DNA from: an uncultured Prevotellaceae bacterium
Lineage (GTDB): Bacteria > Bacteroidota > Bacteroidia > Bacteroidales > Bacteroidaceae
Direction: 5' to 3'
Length of the DNA stretch: 37,151 nt
NCBI GenBank assembly: GCA_947303855.1
Contig: CAMYZO010000028.1
Coordinates: 1-37,151 of the forward strand
Part shown: positions 14,185-37,151 of the stretch, one piece after another
How positions within the stretch are numbered: the stretch's first letter is position 1
Layout: the number at the start of each line of letters is the position of its first letter
Notes under the pieces: model-generated
Database searches by the model: none
Told to the model about the DNA's origin: nothing
What the model saw: the letters and a program-made list of their open reading frames with translations, nothing else
Position numbers and translations under genes: made by a program

Positions 14185-16800
14185 TTACTTGATGTTGACC
14201 GCGACGTGTTGCAGGTCGTTGTCGTTACTGCTTGTGCCTACCATGACATCGTACTTGCCGGGAACAACGCGCATGGTGTTGGTCGTTGCGTCCCAGCCCT
14301 CAAACGACTGGCGGGGTAGGGCGATGCTCACCATCTGCTGTTCGCCGGGCTTCAGTTCCACCTGCTTGTAGGCACGGAGAGTCTTTGCCGGTCCCTCCTT
14401 GTCGGCGGTACGGCGTATGTACACCTGTATGGTCTCCATGCCTTGTCGGCTGCCTGTATTCTTGACGCGCACTTGTACCTTATTGTTCATGTAAGCAGGT
14501 TTGCTGATGCTGAATGTCGTATAGCTCAGTCCGTAGCCGAAGGGGAATACCGGCTGTCCCTGATAGTAGCGATATGTGCGGTTCTTCATGGTGTAGTCCA
14601 GGAAGTCGGGCAGTTCGTTGACATCCTTATAGAACGTGATGGGCAGCTTTCCTGAGGGATTATAGTCGCCAAAGAGCACGTCGGCCAGTGCGCCACCCCC
14701 TTGTTCACCGTCGTACCACCACTGGATGATAGCATCGCATGTCTCCTGTTCGGGTGCCAGTCCCATGGCACCGCCCGAGCAGTTGACGAAGATGACTTTC
14801 TTGCCTGCCTGGTGAAGCATGGCCAGCATATCGCGCTGAGCCTGCGGCAGTTCGATGTCCGTGCGGTCGCCGCCTTTGAATCCAGGTTCGCTCACTTTCA
14901 TCTCCTCGCCTTCCAGTGACGGCGAGATACCACCGACAAAGACCACGGTGCCGGTGGCCCCGATTTCGGCCAGCAGACTTTCTGCCGTGGGCACTACGCG
15001 TTTCTTGATGTCGAAGTTCAGGGCTGCATAACCCGTTTCCTGAACGTAGTCTATCTGGATGCGGTAGTGCTGTCCGGCCTTGACGTTCACTTCCTTCTTG
15101 TCGCCCTGTATGCGGTGGCGCACCTTCCAGATGTCCACCAGCGTATCGCCGTTGACCATGAGGCGCAGTTTGTCGTCGGCGCTGATGTCAAAGACGAGGG
15201 TCTCGTCCTGTTTGGGAATAAACGTGCCGTCGAGTCGGGCAGAGAAGTTTTCGAGGTTCACGCCCGGCGCAAACACGGTGTTGCCGCCGTTGCTCAGTCT
15301 GACGGCCTGGCTGATGTTCACCACGGCAGCGGGCGTGCCCTCCATGCCGGTGTTGTTCCAATAGGCGGCCTGAATACCCTGGTTGCCTAATGGGTCAATC
15401 ACCTCGCTGAAGCGGCTTTCTGTCACCTCGTTGCGCGTCAGGCTGCACCCCTGGAGCAGTCTCACGCGGCTTTGGGGGTTCAGGGCCTTCGCCTTCCTGC
15501 AGATACCTTCCATGGCGGTGATGGTGCGGGTGGGGTAGCCGGCGTAGTTTCCCCACATCATGACCGAGTCGTTGGCATTGGGACCCATGACGACGATGTC
15601 GTCAGTCGAGCCTGCTCCCTTGGCAGAAGGATAGCCCAGTGGCAGCACGCTGTCCTTGTTCTGTAGCAGCACGATGCTCTTGAGTGCCATGCGGTAAGCC
15701 AGTCTCTTGTGCTCCAGCGATGCTACAACATCCTCCGGAATCTTAGTCCACGACACCAGCTCGTCGCTGTCGAAGTCGCCTAATTCCATGCGGGCTATGA
15801 GCAGGCGGCGCAGCGAGCGGTCGAGGTCGCTCTCCTTGATGTCGCCACGGCGGACGGCGGCAGGCAGGTTCTTGTATTCCGAGCCGCACTCCACGTCGGT
15901 ACCGGCCAGCACCGCCTTGGCCGATGCCTCGGCACCGTCCTTGGCTACCGCGTGCCAGTTCGGCAGGAAGTCGCGAATGGCGCCGCAGTCGCTCGTTATC
16001 AGACCTTTGAAGCCCCACTCGTCGCGCAGTATCTGCTGCTCGTACCGGCTCTGGGCACAGCAGGCCTGACCGTCAATGCGCTGGTAGGCACACATCACCT
16101 CGGCCACATCACCTTCTTGCACCAGTGCCTTGAACGCCGGCAGATAGGTCTCCCACAGGTCACGCTCCGGCAGGTTCTCAATGTTGAAGGTATGGCGGTT
16201 CCATTCCGGTCCGCTATGTACGGCAAAGTGCTTGGCACAGGCCAGCAGCTTCTTGTAGCGTTTGTCGAGCGGCTGTCCGTCGTAGGAGTAGCCCTGGAGT
16301 CCCCTGACGACGGCCAGGCCCATCTTGGCTGTCAGATAGGGATCCTCGCCGTAGGTCTCCTGTCCGCGTCCCCAGCGCGGGTCACGGAAGATATTGATGT
16401 TCGGTGTCCAGAACGACAGACTCTGATAGCGCTGAATGTTACCCTTGCGCTTGGCTTGCTGCGCTTTGACGCGGGCCTCGTCGCTGACGGCTGTAAACAC
16501 CTGGTGCAGCAGCTCGTCGTCCCATGAGGCGGCCATGGCCGTGGTGATGGGGAACACGGTGGCGAAGCCGTTGCGGCCAACACCGTGCAGGGCTTCGTTC
16601 CACCATTGGAACTGGGGGATGCCAAGGCGTTCAACAGCCGGCGACACGTCCATCATCAGTTTCACCTTCTCTTCCAGCGTCAGACGGCTAATGAGGTCAT
16701 CGGCCCGCTGTTCTGCCGCCAGTTGCGGATTCTGGAAAGGGTGCTGGGCTGATGCTGTGATAGCCAGTAGCAGCATGAGAGATGCTAACGTCTGTTTCAT
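14185..16800 (-). CDS. glycoside hydrolase family 3 with internal PA14-like domain (beta-xylosidase/beta-glucosidase type)
   Basis: 871 aa; signal peptide; GH3 nucleophile region GFKGLITSDCGAIRDF; inserted LDGTFIPKQDETLVFDISADDKLRLMVNGDTLVD (PA14-like); FnIII-like C-terminus. Confidence 0.92.
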   Translation of the reverse strand: MKQTLASLMLLLAITASAQHPFQNPQLAAEQRADDLISRLTLEEKVKLMMDVSPAVERLGIPQFQWWNEALHGVGRNGFATVFPITTAMAASWDDELLHQVFTAVSDEARVKAQQAKRKGNIQRYQSLSFWTPNINIFRDPRWGRGQETYGEDPYLTAKMGLAVVRGLQGYSYDGQPLDKRYKKLLACAKHFAVHSGPEWNRHTFNIENLPERDLWETYLPAFKALVQEGDVAEVMCAYQRIDGQACCAQSRYEQQILRDEWGFKGLITSDCGAIRDFLPNWHAVAKDGAEASAKAVLAGTDVECGSEYKNLPAAVRRGDIKESDLDRSLRRLLIARMELGDFDSDELVSWTKIPEDVVASLEHKRLAYRMALKSIVLLQNKDSVLPLGYPSAKGAGSTDDIVVMGPNANDSVMMWGNYAGYPTRTITAMEGICRKAKALNPQSRVRLLQGCSLTRNEVTESRFSEVIDPLGNQGIQAAYWNNTGMEGTPAAVVNISQAVRLSNGGNTVFAPGVNLENFSARLDGTFIPKQDETLVFDISADDKLRLMVNGDTLVDIWKVRHRIQGDKKEVNVKAGQHYRIQIDYVQETGYAALNFDIKKRVVPTAESLLAEIGATGTVVFVGGISPSLEGEEMKVSEPGFKGGDRTDIELPQAQRDMLAMLHQAGKKVIFVNCSGGAMGLAPEQETCDAIIQWWYDGEQGGGALADVLFGDYNPSGKLPITFYKDVNELPDFLDYTMKNRTYRYYQGQPVFPFGYGLSYTTFSISKPAYMNNKVQVRVKNTGSRQGMETIQVYIRRTADKEGPAKTLRAYKQVELKPGEQQMVSIALPRQSFEGWDATTNTMRVVPGKYDVMVGTSSNDNDLQHVAVNIK

Positions 16801-18632
16801 GGCAGTATGGTCTTTTTGCCGTTGATGATATAGATACCCTTGCGCGGCTGCTGCTTGTTGGCCACACGGCGTCCTGTCAGGTCGTACATGGCGTCATCGC
16901 CCTCCTTGACCTTCAGCATCTGTATGCCGTCTGTGTCGTTAGCAATGAAACGGATGGCAGCCAGGCGCCATTTCGTGCCTCCGGCAAAGAATTTGTAGGT
17001 CTTGTTAGCCTCCAGGGTATAGACGATGCCGTCCCACGCTGCAATTGCCGTAGCAGGTTTCTCACCGCTTGCAATCGTAGCCCCTGAGCTGAGCACGGTT
17101 CCTGTCAGGCCGTTCTCGCCTTCCGTCATGTTGACAGACTTGTTGGTGGCTATGCCGCCGCCAAAGAAGATCGTCAGCGTTCCCGCTTGTGTTGTTTCAA
17201 TGATGATGGGTGCGCCGTTTGCCTTATCGCTCTGTGTGTAGAATCCGTTGAGTTTTACACCGTCAACTTCCTGTGCGTCGCTACCGCTGCCGCCACTTCT
17301 CCAGTCGGTGACAGCCGGGTCGAATGTTACGGTGATACCGCCCACCTCTGTAATCTTGTCGCCGATGTGTGCATCGTCCTTTGTCATGACATAGACCGTT
17401 TCACCACTTTTGCTGCGCTCAGCCGTAGGGATGGTGGAGAGGATATAGGCGGCATCGTTACCCAGCGTGTTGCCGGCTCCCTCCTCGCCAGTCAGTGTGG
17501 CGGGCACGTCGGCTGTCGCTATTTTCGTGTACTGGTAGGGTACGGTTACTTCGCTGCCAACGGAAGGTGCCGAGAAACTGTTGTCGCGGGCTGTTACCTG
17601 ACGGCCGCTGCCACTGCCCGTCAGCGGGCTGTTCACACCTTTGGCAGCAAAGTTGCCTTCCACCAGCGCCTTGCAGTTTTCGTTGATGGTCATGCCGGCG
17701 CTGTTGCCGGGGCAGTTATGGTAGTTGTTGACCAGATGGACATAGCAGTCGCCGCATTGAGGCAGACGGCGCATGCAGCCCTCGCCCCAGATGTTGCAGG
17801 CAAAGGTGAGGTGGAGTGTCATCTTGCCATCAGCCCATCCGCATCCGCAGGTGTAGGCATGTGAGTAGCTGCGCTTGGTGTAGTAGAAGAGGTTAAAGGT
17901 ATAGGTGGCCCAGTCGCACACCTTGCTGTCGAGGGCTCCGTCCTGAGAGTCTACCAGCGTGCAGTGGTCAACCCAAACATGCGTTCCCTGATTGGTGATG
18001 AGGTCTACACCGTCGATGTCAACCGACCCCGGTCCTATGAGCGCGAGGTTGCGGATGATGATGTTCTCGCTCGAGGTTTCGATGTGGAAGATGCCAGCTT
18101 TGTTGGGCAGCGAATAGACGCCTGTTTTCTGGTATTGCAGTTCCATCATGGCCTTCTTGGTGAAGAAGGCGCGCTTGTCGCAGGTCAGCGTGGTTCCGTC
18201 GGGCAGGGTTCCGGTGTATTGGTCCGTACTGCTCAGTCCGTCCAGGTTCTGTTTCTTCAGATAGGCATTGTCCTCGTCGGTCAGGTAGAACTGTGTACAC
18301 AGGCGTGCGTTGTTGATGCCGATGATGGTCTTGTTCTTCAGCGAAGCCAGCTTCATCACCTGCTCAATGATGAAGTCGCCGTTGGAACCGTCGAGGATAA
18401 TGATGTCGTTCTTGGCTATGGCCTGCTTAATCTGGGTGTCGTCAGTCTGTCCGTTGCCAAGAGCTGTCAAGGTTGTCGACTTGGCGTCGGTGAAGTTGCC
18501 GCCGCTCAGGGTGTAGGCAGTGCCCTCTTCGTCGGAGCAGGTAGCCCAGCCCCAGGGAGCCACGTTGTTGTTGCCAGCCATAGCCGGTAGGAGTGCCATG
18601 GCACTCAGTAAGGTCATTAGTAGTTTTTTCAT
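16797..18632 (-). CDS. pectate lyase family 1 (PL1) with C-terminal beta-sandwich-like region and C-terminal tag
   Basis: ORF runs to 18677, but MKKLLMTLLSAMALLPAMAG at 18632 is the likely start because a TACCTTTG -7 element lies within the upstream extension. PL1 signature (IIGINNARL, HVWVDHCTLVDSQDGALDSK, MRRLPQCGDCYVHLVNNYHNC). Ends YDLTGRRVANKQQPRKGIYIINGKKTILP. Overlaps the GH3 start by ATGA. Confidence 0.88.
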   Translation of the reverse strand: MKKLLMTLLSAMALLPAMAGNNNVAPWGWATCSDEEGTAYTLSGGNFTDAKSTTLTALGNGQTDDTQIKQAIAKNDIIILDGSNGDFIIEQVMKLASLKNKTIIGINNARLCTQFYLTDEDNAYLKKQNLDGLSSTDQYTGTLPDGTTLTCDKRAFFTKKAMMELQYQKTGVYSLPNKAGIFHIETSSENIIIRNLALIGPGSVDIDGVDLITNQGTHVWVDHCTLVDSQDGALDSKVCDWATYTFNLFYYTKRSYSHAYTCGCGWADGKMTLHLTFACNIWGEGCMRRLPQCGDCYVHLVNNYHNCPGNSAGMTINENCKALVEGNFAAKGVNSPLTGSGSGRQVTARDNSFSAPSVGSEVTVPYQYTKIATADVPATLTGEEGAGNTLGNDAAYILSTIPTAERSKSGETVYVMTKDDAHIGDKITEVGGITVTFDPAVTDWRSGGSGSDAQEVDGVKLNGFYTQSDKANGAPIIIETTQAGTLTIFFGGGIATNKSVNMTEGENGLTGTVLSSGATIASGEKPATAIAAWDGIVYTLEANKTYKFFAGGTKWRLAAIRFIANDTDGIQMLKVKEGDDAMYDLTGRRVANKQQPRKGIYIINGKKTILP

Positions 18633-18664
18633 TGTTAGTTTGGTTTTGAAATTGTTTCTGGTTG

Positions 18665-18672
18665 CAAAGGTA
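18665..18672 (-). promoter_or_regulatory. -7 element (TACCTTTG) for the PL1-GH3 operon
   Basis: CAAAGGTA on the plus strand, 32 nt upstream of the re-assigned PL1 start. Confidence 0.5.
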
Positions 18673-18702
18673 CGCATTTTATTTCAGATAGCGATGGAAT
18701 TG

Positions 18703-20765: not shown

Positions 20766-21290
20766 CTACTGTTTGACGAGATAGGTCTGAGCCGGTGTGT
20801 CACCATAGTGTACGATGGTGATGGTTTCTGGCTGACCAACGACAGCAACACCTTCAAAGATGTCGTTCTTAGTCACCTTGCCCTTGTTCTCGACGCGCTG
20901 CTTAATCTTCAGTTTGCCAGTAGCAGCGCTATAGTCATATTCATACAGTGGCAGTTTTTCCGTGTTGGAGTCGTCTACCCAGGTACCTTCCGTAGTGCCC
21001 TGGCTCATCTTGACGGCTACCGAATCGGCCGACACAAAGTTGAGGCTCTCAACAAAGCCCTGCACTTCCTTGCCGTAAGCATTCACCTTGATGCCAGTAC
21101 CGCGTACCCACTGCGTTCCCGCAAGTGTTTCAGGGTGGGGGATTGCTGTCGAGTCAGTATAATTGCTAACCCATGACTTGTTGTTAGTGTCGGTATCCTC
21201 AAACTCGTTGGCATCGCTGCAGGCGGTGGTCAGGCTGATGCCTGCCACCACTGCCATGACAGCAAATATGGATTTCTTTATTGTCTTCAT
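20766..21290 (-). CDS. small lipoprotein of unknown function in the susCD operon
   Basis: MKTIKKSIFAVMAVVAGISLTTACSDANEF lipobox; ATG at 21288-21290 preferred over the TTG start of the supplied ORF (21299). Confidence 0.75.
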   Translation of the reverse strand: MKTIKKSIFAVMAVVAGISLTTACSDANEFEDTDTNNKSWVSNYTDSTAIPHPETLAGTQWVRGTGIKVNAYGKEVQGFVESLNFVSADSVAVKMSQGTTEGTWVDDSNTEKLPLYEYDYSAATGKLKIKQRVENKGKVTKNDIFEGVAVVGQPETITIVHYGDTPAQTYLVKQ

Positions 21291-23747: not shown

Positions 23748-25865
23748 TTAATACTCATAGCCATAATAATTCTTATAGACATCAGAAGAACGCTGTATCA
23801 CCTGGCGTGGATAGGGCAGGATGTAGCGTACCACGGGGAGTGTCTCAGTAGCAGGGATGCTGTTGAACTGCTCCTGCACACCATCGCGGATAATCCAGAT
23901 GTTACCGTTGTCGTCAGTGCGTATATAGCCATAGAAACTGTACTTACACTGGTTGTTGGGCTGTGCGGTAGCATCGTTGAACCAGTTATAGAACTTGGCA
24001 TTGCTCCATCCGTCGGCAGCAAATCCGAATGTGCGGATCTGGCTCGTGGTGGGCTGGCTGATACCCTTGTAGGCATTGTAGATACGCAGGCTGGGCAGCG
24101 ACTGGTTGGGATACATCAGGTCGAAACTGTAGGCATCATTCACGATATAGCCATACAGCTGGTTCTTAATCATGCGGTGTGCCATCATTTTCTGTTGATC
24201 GGTACCCTCGGTAGCATAATACTTGTGATAGTAGACAGTCAGCGGACGGTAGTTGAAGGTGTTGCCGTCGTGCTCGTTGATAGCACCTTCGAAGCCAGAG
24301 TCACCGGCCATGCCAGCAGCATGATAGCGCAGGAAGCTGTACATCAGCTCTTCGGAAATGGTGTTGGTACGCACCAGGTCGCGCCAGCGGATGTTCTCGC
24401 CGGCAAACTCCCATTTACGCTCGTCCATGATAGCCTTCTGGAAGGCGTCTTTGTTGGCCGTTGCAGCGCTGATGAACTCAGGGTCGCCGTCAGAGAAGGC
24501 ACGGGCATGTACCTTTGTCAGGCATTCTACAGCCTTTTCATCCTGCGGACCGCCATCAAGTTCGTTGGCAACCTCGGCATACATCAACAGCACATCGGCA
24601 TAGCGCATGTATGGGAAGTTGATGCCAGTAGAACCTGTAGAGGCGTTACCCAGGGCAGAGCCTTCTGCCGTCCACAACTTCGACCATTTGTTGTTATGAA
24701 CCGAGTAGTCGTTCCTAATCAGGATAGAGTCCACCTGTGTGTTGGTCTCGTCAATGCGGTAGGTGTAATACCATAAGCCATTGACAAACTCACGGCGCTT
24801 GTCGTTGTCGCGGAAGAGGAAACGGTAGAAAGCATGCAGGCGGCCATTGCCTTTGGTTTCACCCCAGGAGCCAGTGGTCTTGTTCTCGTATGATGAATAC
24901 GTGGGACCCTGAATGTAGCCGGTGTTGCCTGTCGACTCTTTGGCAAAGGGAATCTCGAAGATGGGGTCGTCGTTGTTGACAACCTGATAGTTGCACTCGT
25001 TGACAAACACGTTCTGATATTCGGCATTCAGATTGTGACTGCCGGCAGAAATGATAGAGTCGGTATAGTTACGCACCGTCTTGTAGTACTCCAGATAGTT
25101 GTCAGGGCGCTGCATGATACCGTAGCTGCGGTTGTCGCTCTTGTTGGGACGGAGTGAATATCCGCCTGCGGTCAGGGCAATACGAGCTATCATGGCCTGT
25201 GCAAACTCCTTCGAGCAACGCTCAACGGTAACGCTGCTGGCAGGCGACATGTTCTTAGAGGCTTCTTTCAGGTCGGCAATCAGGGCATCCTGAATCTCCT
25301 GGCGGTCGGTAACCGGGAACATGTATTCGGCACGCTTGGCTGCCGGCGTAAAGGTGAAGGGAACGTCGCCGAACATCACCACGAGGTCGTGGTAGATCAT
25401 GGCGCGCAGGCACTTGGCCTCACCAATCCACTGCAGCACCTGTCCGTCCTGAGTCCACTCGGGGTCATTCTCGGTGTTTACGTAGAACTTGCTGGTTTCC
25501 GCAGAGGCAATAAACTTGTTGCAATACTCAATGAGGTTGTAGGCAGCCGTCCAGAATTTCAAGATGTCGCCACCTTCGTCATCACAGTCATAGCGCGAAT
25601 AGCTGGTGTGCGAGTGGCTGCCAGTGGAACTGATTTGAATATCGACATCGCTGTTGTAGATGAATGTCGACTGGTAGGCATTGCCATACAGGTCACCGAC
25701 AAGGGCTTGAGAGTACACGCCGAAGAGGGCGCGCTCAATCTCTGTCTTTTGGCTGAAGACAAATTCCTCAGAGTAGGCCGACGGGGCATCTACCTCCAAG
25801 TAGTCGTTACATGAAGCCAATGCCAGTGCAGCTATTCCGGTCAGAAAAATATTCTTGATTTTCAT
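23748..25865 (-). CDS. SusD/RagB family nutrient-binding outer membrane lipoprotein
   Basis: 705 aa; lipobox LALASCNDYLEVDAPSAYSEEFVF; IRWRDLVRTNTI; follows susC by 17 nt. Confidence 0.93.
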   Translation of the reverse strand: MKIKNIFLTGIAALALASCNDYLEVDAPSAYSEEFVFSQKTEIERALFGVYSQALVGDLYGNAYQSTFIYNSDVDIQISSTGSHSHTSYSRYDCDDEGGDILKFWTAAYNLIEYCNKFIASAETSKFYVNTENDPEWTQDGQVLQWIGEAKCLRAMIYHDLVVMFGDVPFTFTPAAKRAEYMFPVTDRQEIQDALIADLKEASKNMSPASSVTVERCSKEFAQAMIARIALTAGGYSLRPNKSDNRSYGIMQRPDNYLEYYKTVRNYTDSIISAGSHNLNAEYQNVFVNECNYQVVNNDDPIFEIPFAKESTGNTGYIQGPTYSSYENKTTGSWGETKGNGRLHAFYRFLFRDNDKRREFVNGLWYYTYRIDETNTQVDSILIRNDYSVHNNKWSKLWTAEGSALGNASTGSTGINFPYMRYADVLLMYAEVANELDGGPQDEKAVECLTKVHARAFSDGDPEFISAATANKDAFQKAIMDERKWEFAGENIRWRDLVRTNTISEELMYSFLRYHAAGMAGDSGFEGAINEHDGNTFNYRPLTVYYHKYYATEGTDQQKMMAHRMIKNQLYGYIVNDAYSFDLMYPNQSLPSLRIYNAYKGISQPTTSQIRTFGFAADGWSNAKFYNWFNDATAQPNNQCKYSFYGYIRTDDNGNIWIIRDGVQEQFNSIPATETLPVVRYILPYPRQVIQRSSDVYKNYYGYEY

Positions 25866-25882: not shown

Positions 25883-28800
25883 TTAGAATGTAATGTTAGT
25901 ACCGAAAGTGAAGGTGCGACTACGTGGGTAGCGGTTGTAGTCCATGCCTGGTGTCAGACCAGTCTGGATGTCCACCTCGGGATCATAGCCCGTGTAACCT
26001 GTGATGATGAAGAGGTTAGAGGCTGAAACATAGAAACGAGCCTTAGAGATACCTGCTTTCTGGGTCAGCTTCTTAGGCAGTGTGTAGCCTATGGTGACGT
26101 CCGAACAGCGCAGGAACGAACCATCCTCAATGAAATAAGAATGGTTGACATTCTTTGTCACGTCGGTAGGATTCCAAAGATCGCGATGCGGGTTGCCCTG
26201 TTTGTAGATAGAAACGGGGTCGGACAGATAATATGCCTTGTAAAGGATGTCGCCTTTCGTACCGGTAATACTTCCGTCGATGTCGTTATACTGCCAGCCG
26301 TCGGCATAATCTGCCAGTACGTTGTAGAACTTCTGCTTGTTGCCGTTCGATGATGACAGAGCATAAGCCGTGGCATTGTTAATATCGAAGTCGAGCATAT
26401 AGGTGAAGTTGGCTGTAAAGTCGAAGTCCTTGTATGAACCGTTCAAGCCAAAACCACCCTGGAATTTCGGGTTGGTGTTACCGATGATGGTACGGTCGTT
26501 CTCAGTGATGCGGCCGTCGCCGTCCAAGTCCTTGAACTTGATTTTACCAGGCTGTGTGGCGATACCAGAGTTGGAAGAACCTGACACATCGTTGATAATG
26601 GTTACATAGCCATCCTCACGCGGAGCACAGTTGGATGATGTGTTGTTGTCGGCAGCTGTCGAACCCCAGGGGATAGCCTGGTAATTCTTCTGCGGGTCGA
26701 AATAGAACTCGTCGAAGGTGTAGAGACCGTCATAGACGAATCCGTAGATCAGACCCACCTCGTCGCCTACGCGCAGCAGGTAGTCGTTATAGCTTGACTT
26801 CCAGCGCTTGCCTTCCTCAAAGCGCTCGGTCTCGGTGCCGTTCAGCTTGTCAATCTTCATCTTGTTGTGACCAAAGGTCAGGCTGCCTGACAGGACATAG
26901 TCCTTACCCTGCAGGATGTCGCCGCTGATAGACAATTCGACACCCTTGTTGGTAACCTGGCCGATATTCTGCATCTGGCTGGTATAGCCAATCTGCAGCA
27001 GGTTCGACTTGTAAAGCAGGTCGCGGGTGGTGTTCCAGTACACCTCAGGTGTTACTGTCAGTCGTCCGTTGAACAGAGAGATGTCGGCTGCCAGGTTACG
27101 GGTGATAGTGGTCTCCCACTTAATCTCCTTGTTAAAGAACTGTGCACCGCTGTTGTTGCCATAGTACTGCTCGCCCATGGTGGTCACCTCGCCAAAGCCG
27201 GGGCCGTCGGTAGAGTTGATGGCATACAGTTCGCGATAGAGGTCGGCATCGATGCGGTTGTTACCGGCCAGACCGATGGCGGCGCGAATTTTCAGGTTGT
27301 TAATCCACTTGATGCCTTTCATGAACGGCTCTTCAGACATAACCCATGCACCCGAAATGGAGGGGAAGTAACCCCACTGATAGCCAGGAGCAAAGCGGGT
27401 AGAGGCGTCAGCACGCATGGTACCCGAAACGAGGTACTTGTGGTTGTAGTTGTAGCTGGCCTGTCCGAAGAACGATGCGGTACGGTCAGGGGTTGAGAGC
27501 GACGAGGTGACCTCGTACGGTGTACCGAAGTTCATGTTGTTCCAAGCCTCGCGGGCAGTGAAGGCTGCGGGGAAGAGGTGGTTGGTCACATTGTTCTTGC
27601 GCACCTGCGACTCATAGATTTCCTGACCCAGCAGGAACGACAGATTGTGTACATCCTTCAATGCCATGTTGTAGGAAGCCGTGTTCGTCCAGACGTAGTT
27701 CAGACGCTTGGTGTTGTTGATCTGTGCAAGCGGCTGGTTCTTATGCACCGTCTGAGAACCTGTGCTGGTGTAGCCACCGTAGAAGCGGCTCTGGTCGGTC
27801 CATTGCAGTCCTAAAGTTGCTTCCGAGCGCAGCTGCAGTCCCTTGATGGGCTTCCACTCCAAAGCAACGGCATTGGTATATGTGTAGCTGTGCTTGATGA
27901 GCTGGTTGATGGCGATGTCGCTCTTCGGGTTGGTATAGTTGAAGAGTTCTTCCTCAGCGGGGTCGGCGTATGCGGGGTCGATATAGCCGAACTCACGCAG
28001 ACCATTGGTGGGACGGTATTTCAGAACGTCGATGATACCGCCGGTACCTACATTCTCACCACCGGCACCCTCGTCACGACGGAACGAGAATTTGGGGTTG
28101 AACTGTATCGAGAAGTTCTTAGTTACCTGGACGTTGGTCTTAAAGTTGATGTTGGTACGACGTACGCCGGAACCAAGGATGATACCCTTGTCCTCACTCT
28201 GAGTCAGTGAGAGGTTGAACTTCACCTTGTCGGAACCGCCACCGATGGTGACGTTGGTTGAGTAGTTCAAAGGAGTCTCGCCCATCACCTCGTCCTGCCA
28301 GTCATGAGAGGGCAGGGTAGAGTACATGTCAAGGTCGTAGGGGTTGCCGAAGTTGGAACGGAAGAACTTACCGTTGCTGGAGCGTGTGCCGTCGCAGGAG
28401 TGCCACTGGTACTGGTAGTTGGCAAACTGCTGGGCATCCATCAGGTCGAGGGTCTTAGAGATGTGGCTGACGTTCAGGTTGCCGTTGAACGTTACCTGCA
28501 CCTTACCTTCCTTGGCCGACTTGGTGGTCACCACCACAACGCCGTTACCACCCTTGGCACCGTAGATAGCGGTCAGAGAGGCATCCTTCAAGACGTCAAT
28601 CGAGGCAATGTCCGAGGGAGGAATATCGTTGATGTTGTCCACCTGGAAGCCGTCGACGATGAACAGCGGGTGGTTCTCCTGTGTCACAGACGTGCCGCCA
28701 CGTACGCGGATGTTAACGTCGGCACCTGGCTGACCGTCAACGGTGGTTACCTGCACACCGGAAATCTTACCTTGAAGGGCTACGGCGGCAGATGTCACCG

Positions 28801-29206
28801 GCACGATTTCCAGTTTGGCACCCGAGATAGAACCTACCGAACCGGTCAGATCCTTACGGGCCTTGCTGGTGTAACCCACGACGACCACCTCCTCAAGGGC
28901 GGCATTGTCGTCCTTCAGTTGTACCTTCATGTTCTGTGATGCTGCCACATCCTGGCTAATCATGCCAATGTAGGAGATGGTGACAGTCTTGCCTTTCTGC
29001 AGCTTTAATGTGAAGTTACCGTCAAAGTCGGTTACTGCTGCATTCTTTGGGTTACCTTTCTCTACGACGGTTGCGCCGATAACGGGTTCGCCGGTAGCGT
29101 CTGTAACCGTACCCTTAGCTGTGGTCTGTGCTGACACATTCCCTGCAACCAAGAGCAGACACAACAAGAGTGTCGTTCGGAAAATACTCTTTAATTTAAC
29201 AGACAT
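25883..29206 (-). CDS. SusC/RagA family TonB-dependent outer membrane protein
   Basis: 1107 aa; carboxypeptidase-like N-terminal domain (GTVTDATGEPVIGATVVEKG), TonB box region, plug (GSVGSISGAKLE...VRGGTSVTQENHPLFIVDGFQVDNINDIPPSDIASIDVLKDASLTAIYGAKGGNGVVVVTTK). Confidence 0.96.
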   Translation of the reverse strand: MSVKLKSIFRTTLLLCLLLVAGNVSAQTTAKGTVTDATGEPVIGATVVEKGNPKNAAVTDFDGNFTLKLQKGKTVTISYIGMISQDVAASQNMKVQLKDDNAALEEVVVVGYTSKARKDLTGSVGSISGAKLEIVPVTSAAVALQGKISGVQVTTVDGQPGADVNIRVRGGTSVTQENHPLFIVDGFQVDNINDIPPSDIASIDVLKDASLTAIYGAKGGNGVVVVTTKSAKEGKVQVTFNGNLNVSHISKTLDLMDAQQFANYQYQWHSCDGTRSSNGKFFRSNFGNPYDLDMYSTLPSHDWQDEVMGETPLNYSTNVTIGGGSDKVKFNLSLTQSEDKGIILGSGVRRTNINFKTNVQVTKNFSIQFNPKFSFRRDEGAGGENVGTGGIIDVLKYRPTNGLREFGYIDPAYADPAEEELFNYTNPKSDIAINQLIKHSYTYTNAVALEWKPIKGLQLRSEATLGLQWTDQSRFYGGYTSTGSQTVHKNQPLAQINNTKRLNYVWTNTASYNMALKDVHNLSFLLGQEIYESQVRKNNVTNHLFPAAFTAREAWNNMNFGTPYEVTSSLSTPDRTASFFGQASYNYNHKYLVSGTMRADASTRFAPGYQWGYFPSISGAWVMSEEPFMKGIKWINNLKIRAAIGLAGNNRIDADLYRELYAINSTDGPGFGEVTTMGEQYYGNNSGAQFFNKEIKWETTITRNLAADISLFNGRLTVTPEVYWNTTRDLLYKSNLLQIGYTSQMQNIGQVTNKGVELSISGDILQGKDYVLSGSLTFGHNKMKIDKLNGTETERFEEGKRWKSSYNDYLLRVGDEVGLIYGFVYDGLYTFDEFYFDPQKNYQAIPWGSTAADNNTSSNCAPREDGYVTIINDVSGSSNSGIATQPGKIKFKDLDGDGRITENDRTIIGNTNPKFQGGFGLNGSYKDFDFTANFTYMLDFDINNATAYALSSSNGNKQKFYNVLADYADGWQYNDIDGSITGTKGDILYKAYYLSDPVSIYKQGNPHRDLWNPTDVTKNVNHSYFIEDGSFLRCSDVTIGYTLPKKLTQKAGISKARFYVSASNLFIITGYTGYDPEVDIQTGLTPGMDYNRYPRSRTFTFGTNITF

Positions 29207-29290: not shown

Positions 29291-29298
29291 CAAAGATA
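29291..29298 (-). promoter_or_regulatory. -7 element (TATCTTTG) for susC
   Basis: CAAAGATA on the plus strand, ~85 nt upstream of the susC ATG; no good -33 TTTG at the expected spacing. Confidence 0.6.
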
Positions 29299-29337
29299 CA
29301 AATTAATTTTTAATAATCGTAAGGTAAAATAGTAAAT

Positions 29338-29359
29338 TTTTCGCAAACGATTGCGAAAA
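29338..29359. promoter_or_regulatory. LacI-type palindromic operator candidate upstream of susC
   Basis: TTTTCGCAAACGATTGCGAAAA: 22-bp palindrome with central CG and one mismatched pair. Confidence 0.6.
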
Positions 29360-29364
29360 TCTGT

Positions 29365-29405
29365 AAAAACAAAGCCACGCCGTCATATCCTGACGGCGCG
29401 GCTTT
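29365..29405 (-). terminator. intrinsic terminator downstream of the pectinesterase gene
   Basis: AAAGCCACGCCGTCA-TATCC-TGACGGCGCGGCTTT (one mismatch); T tract follows on the minus strand. Confidence 0.88.
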
Positions 29406-29431: not shown

Positions 29432-32400
29432 TTACTTCACCACAACCTTGCGGCCGCCTACGATGTAGATGCCACGGGTGGCCTTCTTCACGCGCATACC
29501 TTTTATATTATAGATAGCGTCGTTGGTGATGCTTTCCTGACTTACCTCGCTGATGCCGTCGGTAGTGCCGACAGTGGCAGCCTCGCCCAGACCGCCCATC
29601 TCGTTGGCGGCACGGACGGCCCACGTAGCGGTGGCATCGTCAACGGTGTAGGTAGGCTCGGTTGTGAAGTCCACCACCTTGTTGTCCTTCACCACGGCCC
29701 AGCAGAGAGCGTAGTCGCTGCCGTCCCAGGTCAGGGTGGTGCCGGTGAGCGTCACGTTCTTCGGGGTGGGAGCCTGCTCGGTGAGCAGCGTGGGATCCCA
29801 GTCACCGTACATGCGGTGCAGGTCGCTGTTCTCCAGAGCCTCCTCGGCGGTCAGCACGGGGTTGTTGGGCTTGTCTGCCGGAATGGTGACACCATTTTCT
29901 TTATGCTCGCCGAACATCTTCTTACGTCCGCTCAGATCGATGACGCTGCCTGATGAGGTCATTGAGTTGTACTCAGCGAAGCGTGCAGGCCAGCCGCCGC
30001 TCATCTCGTTCCAGCCGATGGCTGACGGAACGACGTTCATTTTCGTGTCGATGAAGAGGGCAATCGGAGTGCCGCTGCCCCACGGACGACCGAGGGTGTA
30101 GTTGCCGTCAACACCGCTGCCTTCGCCGTTGATGACGCAGTCCTTGTAGATCCAGCCATACTTGGCAGGCTTCGACGGCACGGCAGCATAGCCACCGGCA
30201 ATCTGGCGCAGTTCAACGCCGTTCCAGAAGATGTCGCCCTTACCGCACATGTAGTCGGTACGTCCGCGGACATAGCCGCCTTCGAAGTAGTACAGGCCAT
30301 TGTCGTTGTTCGATGTCCAGGTGTCCTGATAGCCACGCAGGCCGACGTTCTTATAGACGTTCTTCGTGCCACGGTCTTGGATGGCCAGGTCGCGGCCTGT
30401 AGCATCGTCCATACCCGTCTCAACAGTCAGATCCTGCCAGTAGTAGCCCTGACCGCGCAGCTGGAACACGTCACTGTTGCCGATGCCGTCGTACTTCGAG
30501 GTTGTACCATACTGACCGGCGAAGGTGGCGTTCTTGTCGATACCGTTGGTGATGATAACGCCGTCGCGGCTCTCGCCAATCATCGACAGGTTGTCGGTGT
30601 TGATGAAGGTGATGCACTCAGGCACCTCGTAGCCGTTGCAAGTCTTCATGGTCGAAGACAGAGGAATGGTGTAGCTGCCGTTCTTGATGAAGATGCGGTA
30701 GCGGGTGTTCTTGTCGGTACGAGCCTGGGCGGCAGCGATGGCTTTTGTCAGCTCTTCCACTGTCGATACCACTGCATCGTACATGCCCTTCGTCACTGCC
30801 GGACGGTTCATGGTGGTGAACGTCAGGCTAATGGGCTCGGCAATCATGTTGTCAGTCAGGTCGCTCACAGTCTTGGCAGCCAGGACGAAGTTGTACTCTG
30901 TGCTGTATTCCAGTCCCTTGTAGGCGAAGGTGATGGTCTTGCCGCTGACAATGCCAGTAGTGGGATTCTGCGTGACGCTCTTAATCAGGGTGTTGTTGAT
31001 GTAGGCCATGGCGTTGGGAGCCAGTTTCACACGCTCGTTGAAGGTGAGCACAATCTTACCAGAAGCCGATGCACCAGTAGCGCCGTTGGCAGGCACGGTC
31101 GACACAAGCACGGGAGCCTTGCCGTCGTCAACGAGTTTCGGTGTGCCGGTGATGAAGAACATGGCCAGCGTGTTACCGTCGTTGGCTGAAGCAGCACCGT
31201 CCACCTTCGAGGTCTTGTCGGCCTTCATGCGGATGTATAGCTCCTTCTGGTTGTTGGCTGCGGCGGGCAGCTTCTCGCTGAATGTGCCAACCACGCGGGT
31301 GCCCTCCATGGTGACGCTGCCGAACTTCGTCCAGTTTTCGCCGTCGAGTGAGAACTCGGCATCGTAGGTCTGGTAGGCATTGTAGTTATACAGCATCTGG
31401 AACTGCACGTTGATGTCGGTGAAGGCCTCGGCATTGACCTTGGTCTGCCAGTGCCAGTTGCCTACGTCGCCATTGCTTGCGCCAGTGCGCCAGTTGACGG
31501 CAGCGCCCTTGAAGCTCTCATAGCCACCGCCGCCAAGCGTCGACTTGTCGAGCCAGCCCTGTGTCTCGCCGGTAGTTGTGTTCACCAGGTTCAGGGCGTC
31601 GGCATCGTTGTCCTGTGCGGCAAAGTCTGCCTTACGTCCGTTGCCACCTGCCTTGTAGAAGTCCCAGCCGGCGATGATGTCGGCCTGTGCGTAGAGGGCT
31701 GTCAGGTTGATGTCCTCGGTCAAGGACACAATCTTGCTGCTGCCGGTCTCGCCGTCGCTCCAGTTGGTGAAGGTAACAAGGCCCTCATACTGGTTAGCAT
31801 TGAGCTGCACGGCGGTGCCAGCCTCGTACATGTTCTTGCCGTCCACCACAGTGGGCTCGGGGCTGACGGTCACCATGTAGTCGCTCGTGCCGTCAACGGT
31901 CAGCTTCAGCTCGTAGGTCTCCACGGCCTTGAAGTTAGCGGTCAGCGTCTCGTTGCTGTTCACAGTGTACTTGAACTTAGCCTCGGTGGAAACCTCCTGA
32001 CCGGCGGCGTTCGTCCAGTTGACGAAGTCGAAGCCGAAGTTCTCGGTGGCGGTGAGTGTCACCTCACTGCCCTCCTCATACTCGTCAGCCTTCGGGTAGA
32101 CGTTGATGCTGCCGGCAGCCTCAGGAGCAACGGCGGTAGCCAGGGTGTACTTCTCTACTTGAGCAGCAGTACCATTGACAAAGCCCTCGATGATGACATC
32201 GCTGAAGCCGCCTTCTTTGGTATTGCCAACACCAATCGTAGCCGACAGCGTGAGTTCTTTTCCGGAAGCCAGTGCAGCCTGCTGATCAGCAGTAAGCTCT
32301 ATTTCCACGTGGTTAGTCCAGTTGCTGTTTTTGGCGAATTTATCTTTGTTTGCGTCTTGGTTAGCACGAGGAGCAGTGAAGTTACCCAGAGTAACCGCTT

Positions 32401-33955
32401 CGCTATCACCCACCTTCGCGTTGATGGTAACGCCGTTCTCAGCATCGGTGCCGAAACGCTGGATCCACATGCTCACCTTCGTTGGGGTGAATGTCAGTCC
32501 GGCTGCAGGTTTAGCCACCCATTGCATAGCAGTCGTTGAACCAGCAGGCTTGAGTTTAATAAACTTAATGCCATCGGCCAAGTTGTCTGCAGTACGGGTT
32601 GCAGCACCAGTAACAGTGAGGTCGCCAGCATTGACAGCAACGGTAGAGAATGCATCTTTTGGAGCGGCATTGTAGTCGGCAATGGTAGCAGGATCATTGA
32701 AAGGCCACTCAATGGTAGCTGCCACATTATCATAACTTTGGCCGCCGCCCTGGCTCTGTACCACGGGCAGTACCACCTGGATGTAGCGGTAGTAGCTGCC
32801 ATCGCCAATCACAACGTCAACCGTCTCAGCAGCACCGGCAATGGTGTAGCTGATGGTCTTGCCCTGCGTATAGTCTTTCTGTCCGTCGATAGTGGTTGTG
32901 GTGATTTCGCTGTAGGCTTCCATCGAGATGGTGGCACCCTTGCACGAAGGAACGGTGAACTTGGTGCCGCCATTCAGCTGTGCCCAGTCGTTCCAGTTGC
33001 CGTTGGCAAACTTACCGCCGTTGTTGGTGTCGAAGTCGGCCTTCACGTCGATGGTCTTGCCGTTGACGGTGGCCTGGCTCACCCAAATGCCTGTCTTGTT
33101 CTGATAGGCCACAGTGGGAGCACCGTCCTGACGCATGAAGTCGAACTTCACGGTGACAGGCTCCGTACGGTCGGCCAGCTTGACCTCGTTGGCAGTGAAG
33201 ACGGGAGTCAGTGCGACGGTCTCGGCCTCAGGAGCCTTGATGGTCTCGCCGGGAGCGTAGGTGTTTGTACCGTCAGTCCAGCCAGTCAGCGTGTAGCCCT
33301 CTTTGTAAAGGGTAAAGTTCTTCGGTAGGGTGTAGTCCTTACCTATAGCTACCGCCTCTGCTTCGGGAGCAACGCCCTCAGCCTCGCCAGCACTGAACGT
33401 GAACTTCACGTCGTTGGGAATCTGATTGGGGCTGACAGCCTCAACGGCGAAATATGGCGTGTAGCTGCCACCGCTGATGGTCAGCGTGGTAGGCTCGTTC
33501 ACCTTGTAATAAGCAAAGAGGACGTTCTCCGTTGGTTTGGCGTTGCTCCAGCAGGCACCGTTGTTGGTGTTGAACGTAGCAACAGTCTGGCCCTCGGCGT
33601 TCTTCACCGTAACATCGCCGCCCCATGCGCAACTGCCCATAGAGACCTTGACGGTACCCAGCACTTTAACGGTAGCCGAGAAGTTGCTAAGTCCGTGCTG
33701 GTCGCTGTGATACTTGCCAGTGATGACGGCATTGGCTGTGGCATCGTCGGCAGCAACGCGGGCGAATGTGCCGTCCTCGTTCATTTTCAGACCAGCCGAG
33801 GTGACGCTTGACTCCGAGGCTGTAAAGAACGAACCGTTGGTGAAGTCTGCCTTGATGTCGCGGAATCCGTCCTCTGCTTCAGCAGCAACTGTTCCCACAC
33901 CACAGAGCATGACGAGCAAACTCAGTAGTGAGAATCGTAAAAATTTGTAGTTCAT
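29432..33955 (-). CDS. multimodular pectinesterase (CE8) with long N-terminal non-catalytic region and C-terminal tag
   Basis: 1507 aa; CE8 motifs (GYQDTWTSNNDNGLYYFEGGYVRGRTDYMCGKGDIFWNGVEL, YTLGRPWG); Flg_new/InlB-like repeats, SbsA-like Ig domain; ends IYNIKGMRVKKATRGIYIVGGRKVVVK. Confidence 0.88.
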   Translation of the reverse strand: MNYKFLRFSLLSLLVMLCGVGTVAAEAEDGFRDIKADFTNGSFFTASESSVTSAGLKMNEDGTFARVAADDATANAVITGKYHSDQHGLSNFSATVKVLGTVKVSMGSCAWGGDVTVKNAEGQTVATFNTNNGACWSNAKPTENVLFAYYKVNEPTTLTISGGSYTPYFAVEAVSPNQIPNDVKFTFSAGEAEGVAPEAEAVAIGKDYTLPKNFTLYKEGYTLTGWTDGTNTYAPGETIKAPEAETVALTPVFTANEVKLADRTEPVTVKFDFMRQDGAPTVAYQNKTGIWVSQATVNGKTIDVKADFDTNNGGKFANGNWNDWAQLNGGTKFTVPSCKGATISMEAYSEITTTTIDGQKDYTQGKTISYTIAGAAETVDVVIGDGSYYRYIQVVLPVVQSQGGGQSYDNVAATIEWPFNDPATIADYNAAPKDAFSTVAVNAGDLTVTGAATRTADNLADGIKFIKLKPAGSTTAMQWVAKPAAGLTFTPTKVSMWIQRFGTDAENGVTINAKVGDSEAVTLGNFTAPRANQDANKDKFAKNSNWTNHVEIELTADQQAALASGKELTLSATIGVGNTKEGGFSDVIIEGFVNGTAAQVEKYTLATAVAPEAAGSINVYPKADEYEEGSEVTLTATENFGFDFVNWTNAAGQEVSTEAKFKYTVNSNETLTANFKAVETYELKLTVDGTSDYMVTVSPEPTVVDGKNMYEAGTAVQLNANQYEGLVTFTNWSDGETGSSKIVSLTEDINLTALYAQADIIAGWDFYKAGGNGRKADFAAQDNDADALNLVNTTTGETQGWLDKSTLGGGGYESFKGAAVNWRTGASNGDVGNWHWQTKVNAEAFTDINVQFQMLYNYNAYQTYDAEFSLDGENWTKFGSVTMEGTRVVGTFSEKLPAAANNQKELYIRMKADKTSKVDGAASANDGNTLAMFFITGTPKLVDDGKAPVLVSTVPANGATGASASGKIVLTFNERVKLAPNAMAYINNTLIKSVTQNPTTGIVSGKTITFAYKGLEYSTEYNFVLAAKTVSDLTDNMIAEPISLTFTTMNRPAVTKGMYDAVVSTVEELTKAIAAAQARTDKNTRYRIFIKNGSYTIPLSSTMKTCNGYEVPECITFINTDNLSMIGESRDGVIITNGIDKNATFAGQYGTTSKYDGIGNSDVFQLRGQGYYWQDLTVETGMDDATGRDLAIQDRGTKNVYKNVGLRGYQDTWTSNNDNGLYYFEGGYVRGRTDYMCGKGDIFWNGVELRQIAGGYAAVPSKPAKYGWIYKDCVINGEGSGVDGNYTLGRPWGSGTPIALFIDTKMNVVPSAIGWNEMSGGWPARFAEYNSMTSSGSVIDLSGRKKMFGEHKENGVTIPADKPNNPVLTAEEALENSDLHRMYGDWDPTLLTEQAPTPKNVTLTGTTLTWDGSDYALCWAVVKDNKVVDFTTEPTYTVDDATATWAVRAANEMGGLGEAATVGTTDGISEVSQESITNDAIYNIKGMRVKKATRGIYIVGGRKVVVK

Positions 33956-36991: not shown

Positions 36992-37151
36992 ATGGAAGCA
37001 GTAACTATACAGGCAAAGCCGTTCACCCCATTCCAGATTGAGATGCTGGAATTGGTGTCCAGAGTATCCTCAGAAGTGGAAATGCAAGACATTCGACGCA
37101 TGCTTGGCCAGTATTTCGCCAAGCGAGCTGAGGATGCCATTGACCGTCTTT
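36992..37151 (+). CDS. partial CDS, possible type II antitoxin-like small protein (truncated by window end)
   Basis: AAGGAG upstream; MEAVTIQAKPFTPFQIEMLELVSRVSSEVEMQDIRRMLGQYFAKRAEDAIDRL... resembles small Bacteroidota antitoxins that precede PIN-domain toxins (recalled, not searched). Confidence 0.5.
   Translation, partial: MEAVTIQAKPFTPFQIEMLELVSRVSSEVEMQDIRRMLGQYFAKRAEDAIDRL

Follow-up and report, generated by a model that had tools for sequence, protein, structure and literature searches.

A conserved LacI-type operator upstream of a pectin-locus susC gene, with a candidate unlinked regulator and a divergent small RNA

The susC promoter of a pectin locus from an uncultured Prevotellaceae bacterium carries a conserved palindrome at a fixed distance from its -7 box. 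This palindrome is likely to serve as operator for an unlinked regulator of the LacI family, LacI-C, which would activate susC by a class-I mechanism. A LacI gene conserved along with the motif and a small RNA with a covarying terminator accompany it in the genus; binding and activation by LacI-C are what we infer. Prevotella and Segatella are major fibre degraders. The well-studied Bacteroides pectin loci are run by linked hybrid sensors; for Prevotella/Segatella the analysis yields a named regulator candidate, an operator of strict geometry, a short promoter list and a small RNA.

The palindrome and its promoter

The window, i.e. the whole stretch of DNA analysed (37,151 nucleotides), is one complete contig (C28), ending at 37151, of a 3.44 Mb assembly with 153 contigs and 82% completeness. 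The following features were considered:

14185-16800, minus strand: GH3 glycosidase at the locus end (Pfam Glyco_hydro_3, PA14)
16797-18677, minus strand: pectate lyase of the same locus (Pfam Pectate_lyase_4)
23748-25865, minus strand: susD (Pfam SusD_RagB)
25883-29206, minus strand: susC, TonB-dependent transporter gene, presumed to be the regulated gene (Pfam Plug, CarbopepD_reg_2)
29291-29298, minus strand: -7 element TATCTTTG of susC, matching TAnnTTTG and conserved in orthologs
29299-29341, minus strand: 43-bp spacer from the -7 box to the operator core, its length kept and its sequence mostly not
29337-29341, minus strand: promoter-side A-tract (AAAAA on this strand), seen when the 12 promoters with a 43-bp gap were aligned
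29338-29359, no strand: 22-bp near-perfect palindrome
29342-29355, no strand: 14-bp putative operator core CGCAAACGATTGCG (motif CGYAANCGNTTRCG)
29371-29405, minus strand: terminator-like hairpin belonging to the upstream gene (29432-33955), an inverted repeat in the sequence

Downstream of the promoter follow susC, susD and genes for proteins without Pfam match, for the pectate lyase and for the GH3 glycosidase. The 22-mer TTTTCGCAAACGATTGCGAAAA has a central CG and agrees with its own reverse complement at 20 of 22 positions, with a single base pair off. No dinucleotide shuffle of the window contained a palindrome match as good. The -7 box is separated from the 22-mer by 39 bp and from the 14-bp core by 43 bp. 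The -33 region of susC is poor in the window; TTTGG was found there in several orthologs. Among the window's main ORFs, Pfam revealed neither a regulator gene nor a linked hybrid sensor-regulator of the HTCS type, and no regulator was found beside susC in close relatives. One relative (G083) encodes an 802-aa AraC-type sensor-regulator (Reg_prop/Y_Y_Y/AraC, L170:6927-9335) about 10 kb downstream in its pectin locus; this protein is absent from the corresponding place in the window's locus. The features that an earlier note had read from this DNA, i.e. a near-perfect 22-bp palindrome with central CG about 40-70 nt upstream of a -7 element with a poor -33, in a locus without a regulator gene, were all found again. 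When the genome was searched for the palindrome, as that note had proposed, the 22-mer proved to be single copy (up to two mismatches allowed), and the strict core occurred four times.

Conservation upstream of orthologous susC genes had been set beforehand as the test that could refute this reading. The search of 200 genomes of the genus gave a close susC relative in 35 of them, with upstream sequence for 29 genes. The core CGYAANCGNTTRCG (at most one mismatch) was present upstream of 15 of the 29, in orthologs whose protein identity was as low as about 61%; shuffled upstream regions gave 0.12 on average and 2 at most. The test did not refute the reading. The conserved unit appears to be the 14-bp core with its promoter-side A-tract and not the full 22 bp. 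In the 12-promoter alignment the A-tract adjoining the operator was longer in most orthologs than in the window, and on the distal side the outer TTTT...AAAA of the window was not kept among susC orthologs. Searches with the full 22 bp, which returned only the window among 150 relatives and 14 scattered records in the genome collection, are uninformative because the 14-bp core is the conserved unit.

Elsewhere in the window, a 174-aa protein without Pfam match (20766-21290) is kept in the pectin locus of relatives, and an Abi-like (Abi_2) gene lies at the contig start (759-1451).

Candidate regulators and proposed mode of action

A search for LacI-family genes, also proposed earlier, gave three in this genome. 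LacI-A (C39:307-1377) lies beside altronate dehydratase (uxaA), antiporter and PfkB-type kinase genes, i.e. it has the catabolic linkage of KdgR and UxaR. LacI-B (C43) belongs to a starch sus locus. LacI-C (C26:7565-8584, 339 aa) is located on a contig other than the window's, upstream of Reg_prop sensor kinase, GH31 and GH2 genes; it lacks the linkage of KdgR and UxaR, with no pectin or uronate catabolic genes among its neighbours. Among solved structures, CcpA entries come closest to LacI-C; CcpA is a LacI-family activator or dual regulator. LacI-A, being linked to uxaA, was the first guess and was dropped on co-occurrence and promoter comparison.

When 30 genomes were compared, the upstream signature differed by LacI group. 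The lacI-C promoters carried CGTAAACGTTTGCG or a one-base variant in 22 of 22 genomes, 17-18 bp from their own -7 box, and the susC sites match this motif. LacI-B promoters mostly carried TGCAAACGTTTGCA, 54-56 bp from the -7 boxes on both sides (lacI and divergent susC). A central-CG palindrome, conserved at orthologous promoters and found again before a LacI gene, supports the LacI/GalR-type layout recognised in the earlier note. LacI-C was present in 15 of 15 palindrome-positive genomes versus 5 of 13 palindrome-negative ones (Fisher p=0.0004, kinship ignored). The supposition that control comes from an unlinked LacI-like protein is thereby supported on comparative evidence, with a candidate that has the motif in its own promoter. 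Against LacI-C count its sensor kinase/GH31/GH2 neighbourhood, its presence in five palindrome-negative genomes and the strong similarity of the LacI-B operator. As side observations, the LacI-B operator (L017:9528-9541 and 19 other genomes) sits one helical turn beyond the pectin spacing, and a fourth LacI group has two upstream sites CGCAANGCNTTGCG with a GC centre (L157, L162, L164-L167).

It is unlikely that LacI-A, the expected galacturonate regulator, occupies the site instead of LacI-C. Besides its linkage to uxaA and the PfkB-type kinase gene, the variant CGAAATCGGTTACG lies with a 43-bp gap between LacI-A and the kinase gene in this genome, and a variant motif precedes lacI-A itself in two genomes. 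Against this, lacI-A orthologs showed no consistent upstream palindrome, the recognition helix SVGTVDRV is unlike the LacI-B/C type, and LacI-A presence does not track the palindrome (13 of 15 positive versus 12 of 13 negative genomes). Binding by, or sharing with, the starch regulator LacI-B is quite improbable: its sites lie at 54-56 bp with mostly T/A outer bases, whereas pectin sites lie at 43-45 bp with C/G outer bases, and one genome (G031) has the motif while LacI-B was not found in it. Both proteins have the (A/S)TVSRAL helix, and the LacI-B operator of this genome, CGCAAACGTTTGCA, and the window core are unlike at one outer and one central base pair. Because these operators are nearly equal, LacI-B is a more serious rival for cross-talk than LacI-A.

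The distance from the core to TAnnTTTG was 43 bp in 12 of the 15 susC promoters; the remaining three had 44, 45 and 53 bp. The spacer sequence was poorly conserved apart from the operator-adjoining A-tract and the -33/-7 region. The degenerate module CAAANNTA-N42-46-CGNAANCGNTTNCG had about 150 occurrences among the matches listed and was present in 90 of 200 genomes; the reversed-pattern control gave 1. Genus-wide, strict-core gaps clustered at 17-18 bp (40), 42-45 bp (80) and 53-56 bp (13), with few others, the 149 gaps including related species and not being independent events. The step from 43-44 to 53-55 bp would correspond to one turn of DNA. A fixed position upstream of the promoter core, kept across orthologs while the flanking sequence diverged and shifted by about one helical turn, supports the activator-like placement that had been proposed from the window. 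In Bacteroides promoters the -7 box starts near -11. If so here, the operator centre would be near -61, by this estimate the classical class-I activator position.

LacI-C would thus bind some 61 bp before the susC start and help RNA polymerase to initiate there. The trigger would be pectin breakdown products sensed by its sugar-binding domain, presumably a pectin-derived sugar acid of the galacturonate or KDG type. Sites near -61, or one turn farther away, would serve activation, and those where the protein covers -33 repression. The operator-to--7 distance (17-18, 43-45 or 53-56 bp) may then predict repression or activation, and the arrangement offers a model of how a LacI-family protein would activate a Bacteroidota -7/-33 promoter.

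In the opposite reading, a LacI protein keeps susC silent until pectin products release it. Characterised LacI proteins are mostly repressors, and the operator at lacI-C itself covers the -33 region. However, at susC and the other targets a gap of 43-45 or 53-56 bp separates the -7 box from the operator core, which is thus upstream of and outside the core promoter, and repressor sites need no kept spacing, whereas here the spacing is kept and one-turn shifts are tolerated; repression of susC has a low probability. The terminator-like hairpin at 29371-29405, reading AAAGCC(A)CGCCGTCA...TGACGGCG(C)GGCTTT and then TTTGTTTTT on the minus strand, separates the upstream gene from the susC promoter. 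That the palindrome, lying just past this hairpin, is only an inverted repeat left from the upstream gene end, for example part of its terminator, is largely excluded and very improbable, as the hairpin has a T-tract of its own and the conserved core keeps its promoter spacing and recurs at many unrelated promoters.

Predicted targets and known systems

The four strict-core sites of this genome comprise those of the window and the lacI-C promoter and the first two below, to which a weaker one may be added:

C108: pectate lyase-pectinesterase gene, gap 44 bp
C104: fumarate reductase/succinate dehydrogenase operon, gap 18 bp
Fifth, weaker site CGAAATCGGTTACG: gap 43 bp, pointing at the gene divergent from LacI-A

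The visible N-terminus encoded by the latter gene reads like the PfkB-type kinase that relatives have there. Core-like matches on C5, C19, C48, C66 and C111 were in-gene or broken palindromes and were treated as chance. Relatives have sites with gaps of 43-45 or 53-56 bp in front of further pectinesterase/pectate lyase genes, a second susC and GH28, and also uxuA, gdhA, MFS transporter and phosphotransacetylase genes. Predicted targets of the pectin and uronate kind count for LacI-C. Strict-core sites at an amylase gene (G151) and a GH97 gene (G185) probably belong to the starch LacI.

Two further observations concern central metabolism. The gdhA (glutamate dehydrogenase) genes of several species have the operator exactly 43 bp away (L198:4069, L200:5002, L214:4540, L283:3625, L284:2784), which may link the pectin regulator to nitrogen assimilation. 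At the fumarate reductase/succinate dehydrogenase cytochrome b operon, a LacI-type core lies 18 bp from the -7 box in three close relatives (L015:1611-1624, L203:5202, L208:2773), which suggests that a LacI protein represses respiration genes. Despite the sites at gdhA, phosphotransacetylase and fumarate reductase genes, a global, CcpA-like regulon was set aside, since a genome has only about 1-7 strict sites.

In the single-contig genome of one relative (G045), the gene order resembles the published pectin loci of Segatella copri DSM18205; judged by gene order alone, this genome would be that strain or a close relative. Its sites have these gaps:

SusC: 43 bp
GH28-GH43: 43 bp
Second SusC: 44 bp
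Lone GH28: 53 bp

On pectic polysaccharides, GH28, GH43 and the second transporter cluster of S. copri were highly induced, as was a lone GH28, and on a glycan mixture both transporter genes rose 50-300-fold by RT-qPCR (PMC11784079). The G045 sites precede pectin genes most of which are reported as pectin-induced, which counts for LacI-C. In the same organism the first susC/D pair showed weak RNA-seq induction (PMC11784079), and this counts against activation by LacI-C. The LacI-altronate dehydratase-antiporter genes were not induced and the kinase gene was reported as induced (PMC11784079); no operator site was found upstream of the G045 kinase gene. As a separate observation, the window gene adjoining susC (29432-33955) encodes a secreted protein of 1507 aa that contains Big_5 and InlB-like repeats. 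In the S. copri-like genome, a homolog with 50% identity occupies the position of the paper's CE8 pectin methylesterase, and Pfam detected no esterase domain in the window copy.

KdgR, UxaR and UxuR are LacI-family uronate regulators predicted in Bacteroides, found via catabolic-gene linkage and grouped in a single branch of the LacI tree; some extracellular or periplasmic genes are said to belong to the KdgR regulon (PMC3878776, PMC4052901). LacI-C resembles them in family, and they regulate galacturonate/KDG catabolism; in contrast to them, it is not linked to uronate genes, and the available parts of these reports describe neither the activation geometry nor a divergent small RNA (PMC3878776, PMC4052901). 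Pectin/rhamnogalacturonan loci of B. thetaiotaomicron are controlled by HTCS whose genes are linked to the loci. As proposed here, susC/susD and pectinase genes are activated there, but no HTCS gene was found among the window's main ORFs and the site is a LacI-type palindrome (PMC3878776). Cra/FruR is a LacI-family activator or dual regulator (PMC4052901). With Cra/FruR and CcpA the site shares a central-CG LacI-type palindrome and, as proposed, activation or repression set by operator position; it differs in its Bacteroidota -33/-7 promoter, in a small pectin-centred site set in place of a global regulon, and in its divergent small RNA.

The small RNA divergent from lacI-C

In the lacI-C promoter the operator overlaps the -33 region, which is consistent with autorepression. 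The same operator is 43-45 bp from a divergent TAnnTTTG in 21 of 22 genomes, and no conserved divergent gene was found beside lacI-C. The divergent -7 box is followed by GAATGAGTAATGAATAGTTGATAATAAGTTAGTTAGAAA, a terminator hairpin and a T-tract, about 75 nt in length:

C26:8704-8778 of this genome (L016:8704-8778), plus strand: ~75-nt small RNA with invariant AGTAATGAATAGTTGATAATAAGTTAGTTAG and covarying intrinsic terminator

In the terminator stem, 8 of 11 pairs had changed on both sides, 93.9% of cells were paired and no shuffle attained the covariation score. Of 200 genomes of the genus, 91 gave a match to the covariance model. Its 31-nt 5' part was identical in 38 of 38 inspected cases, and in 35 of these lacI-C was divergent from it and the operator lay 43-45 or 53-54 bp away. 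The RNA has its own promoter, an intrinsic terminator, a conserved structure and no conserved open reading frame; two species have lost the ATG at nt 3 that could serve as a start. No match was obtained in Rfam and text searches of the papers covered did not find the sequence; the RNA appears to be unreported. Bacteroides BatR, too, is a short RNA from an intergenic region and has a -7 box of its own and an intrinsic terminator, but it differs in context and length, the RNA described here having a promoter with a LacI operator and 31 nt at its 5' side identical across species (PMC10861873).

LacI-C would repress its own gene and, from the same single operator, activate the divergent RNA. A few genomes keep the small RNA without LacI-C, and therefore it probably has a role beyond this link. 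That LacI-C and the ultra-conserved RNA form one genus-wide unit, in which pectin products lead the protein to activate, by a class-I mechanism, surface pectin genes together with the RNA, the latter acting in trans to adjust other metabolism, is a tentative proposal to which we give somewhat less than an even chance. If true, this would be a sugar-responsive protein-plus-RNA circuit of a kind not described for Bacteroidota in the literature searched.

Weak matches to the covariance model were not credible, except in another genus (g14), where they look like a related RNA. In several of its genomes (L234-L248) this RNA consists of GGTTAATAATTAGTTAGTTAGTTAATTAGTC and a TTCGTGAGAA-tipped hairpin with no LacI operator, and in two genomes it lies near tRNA genes.
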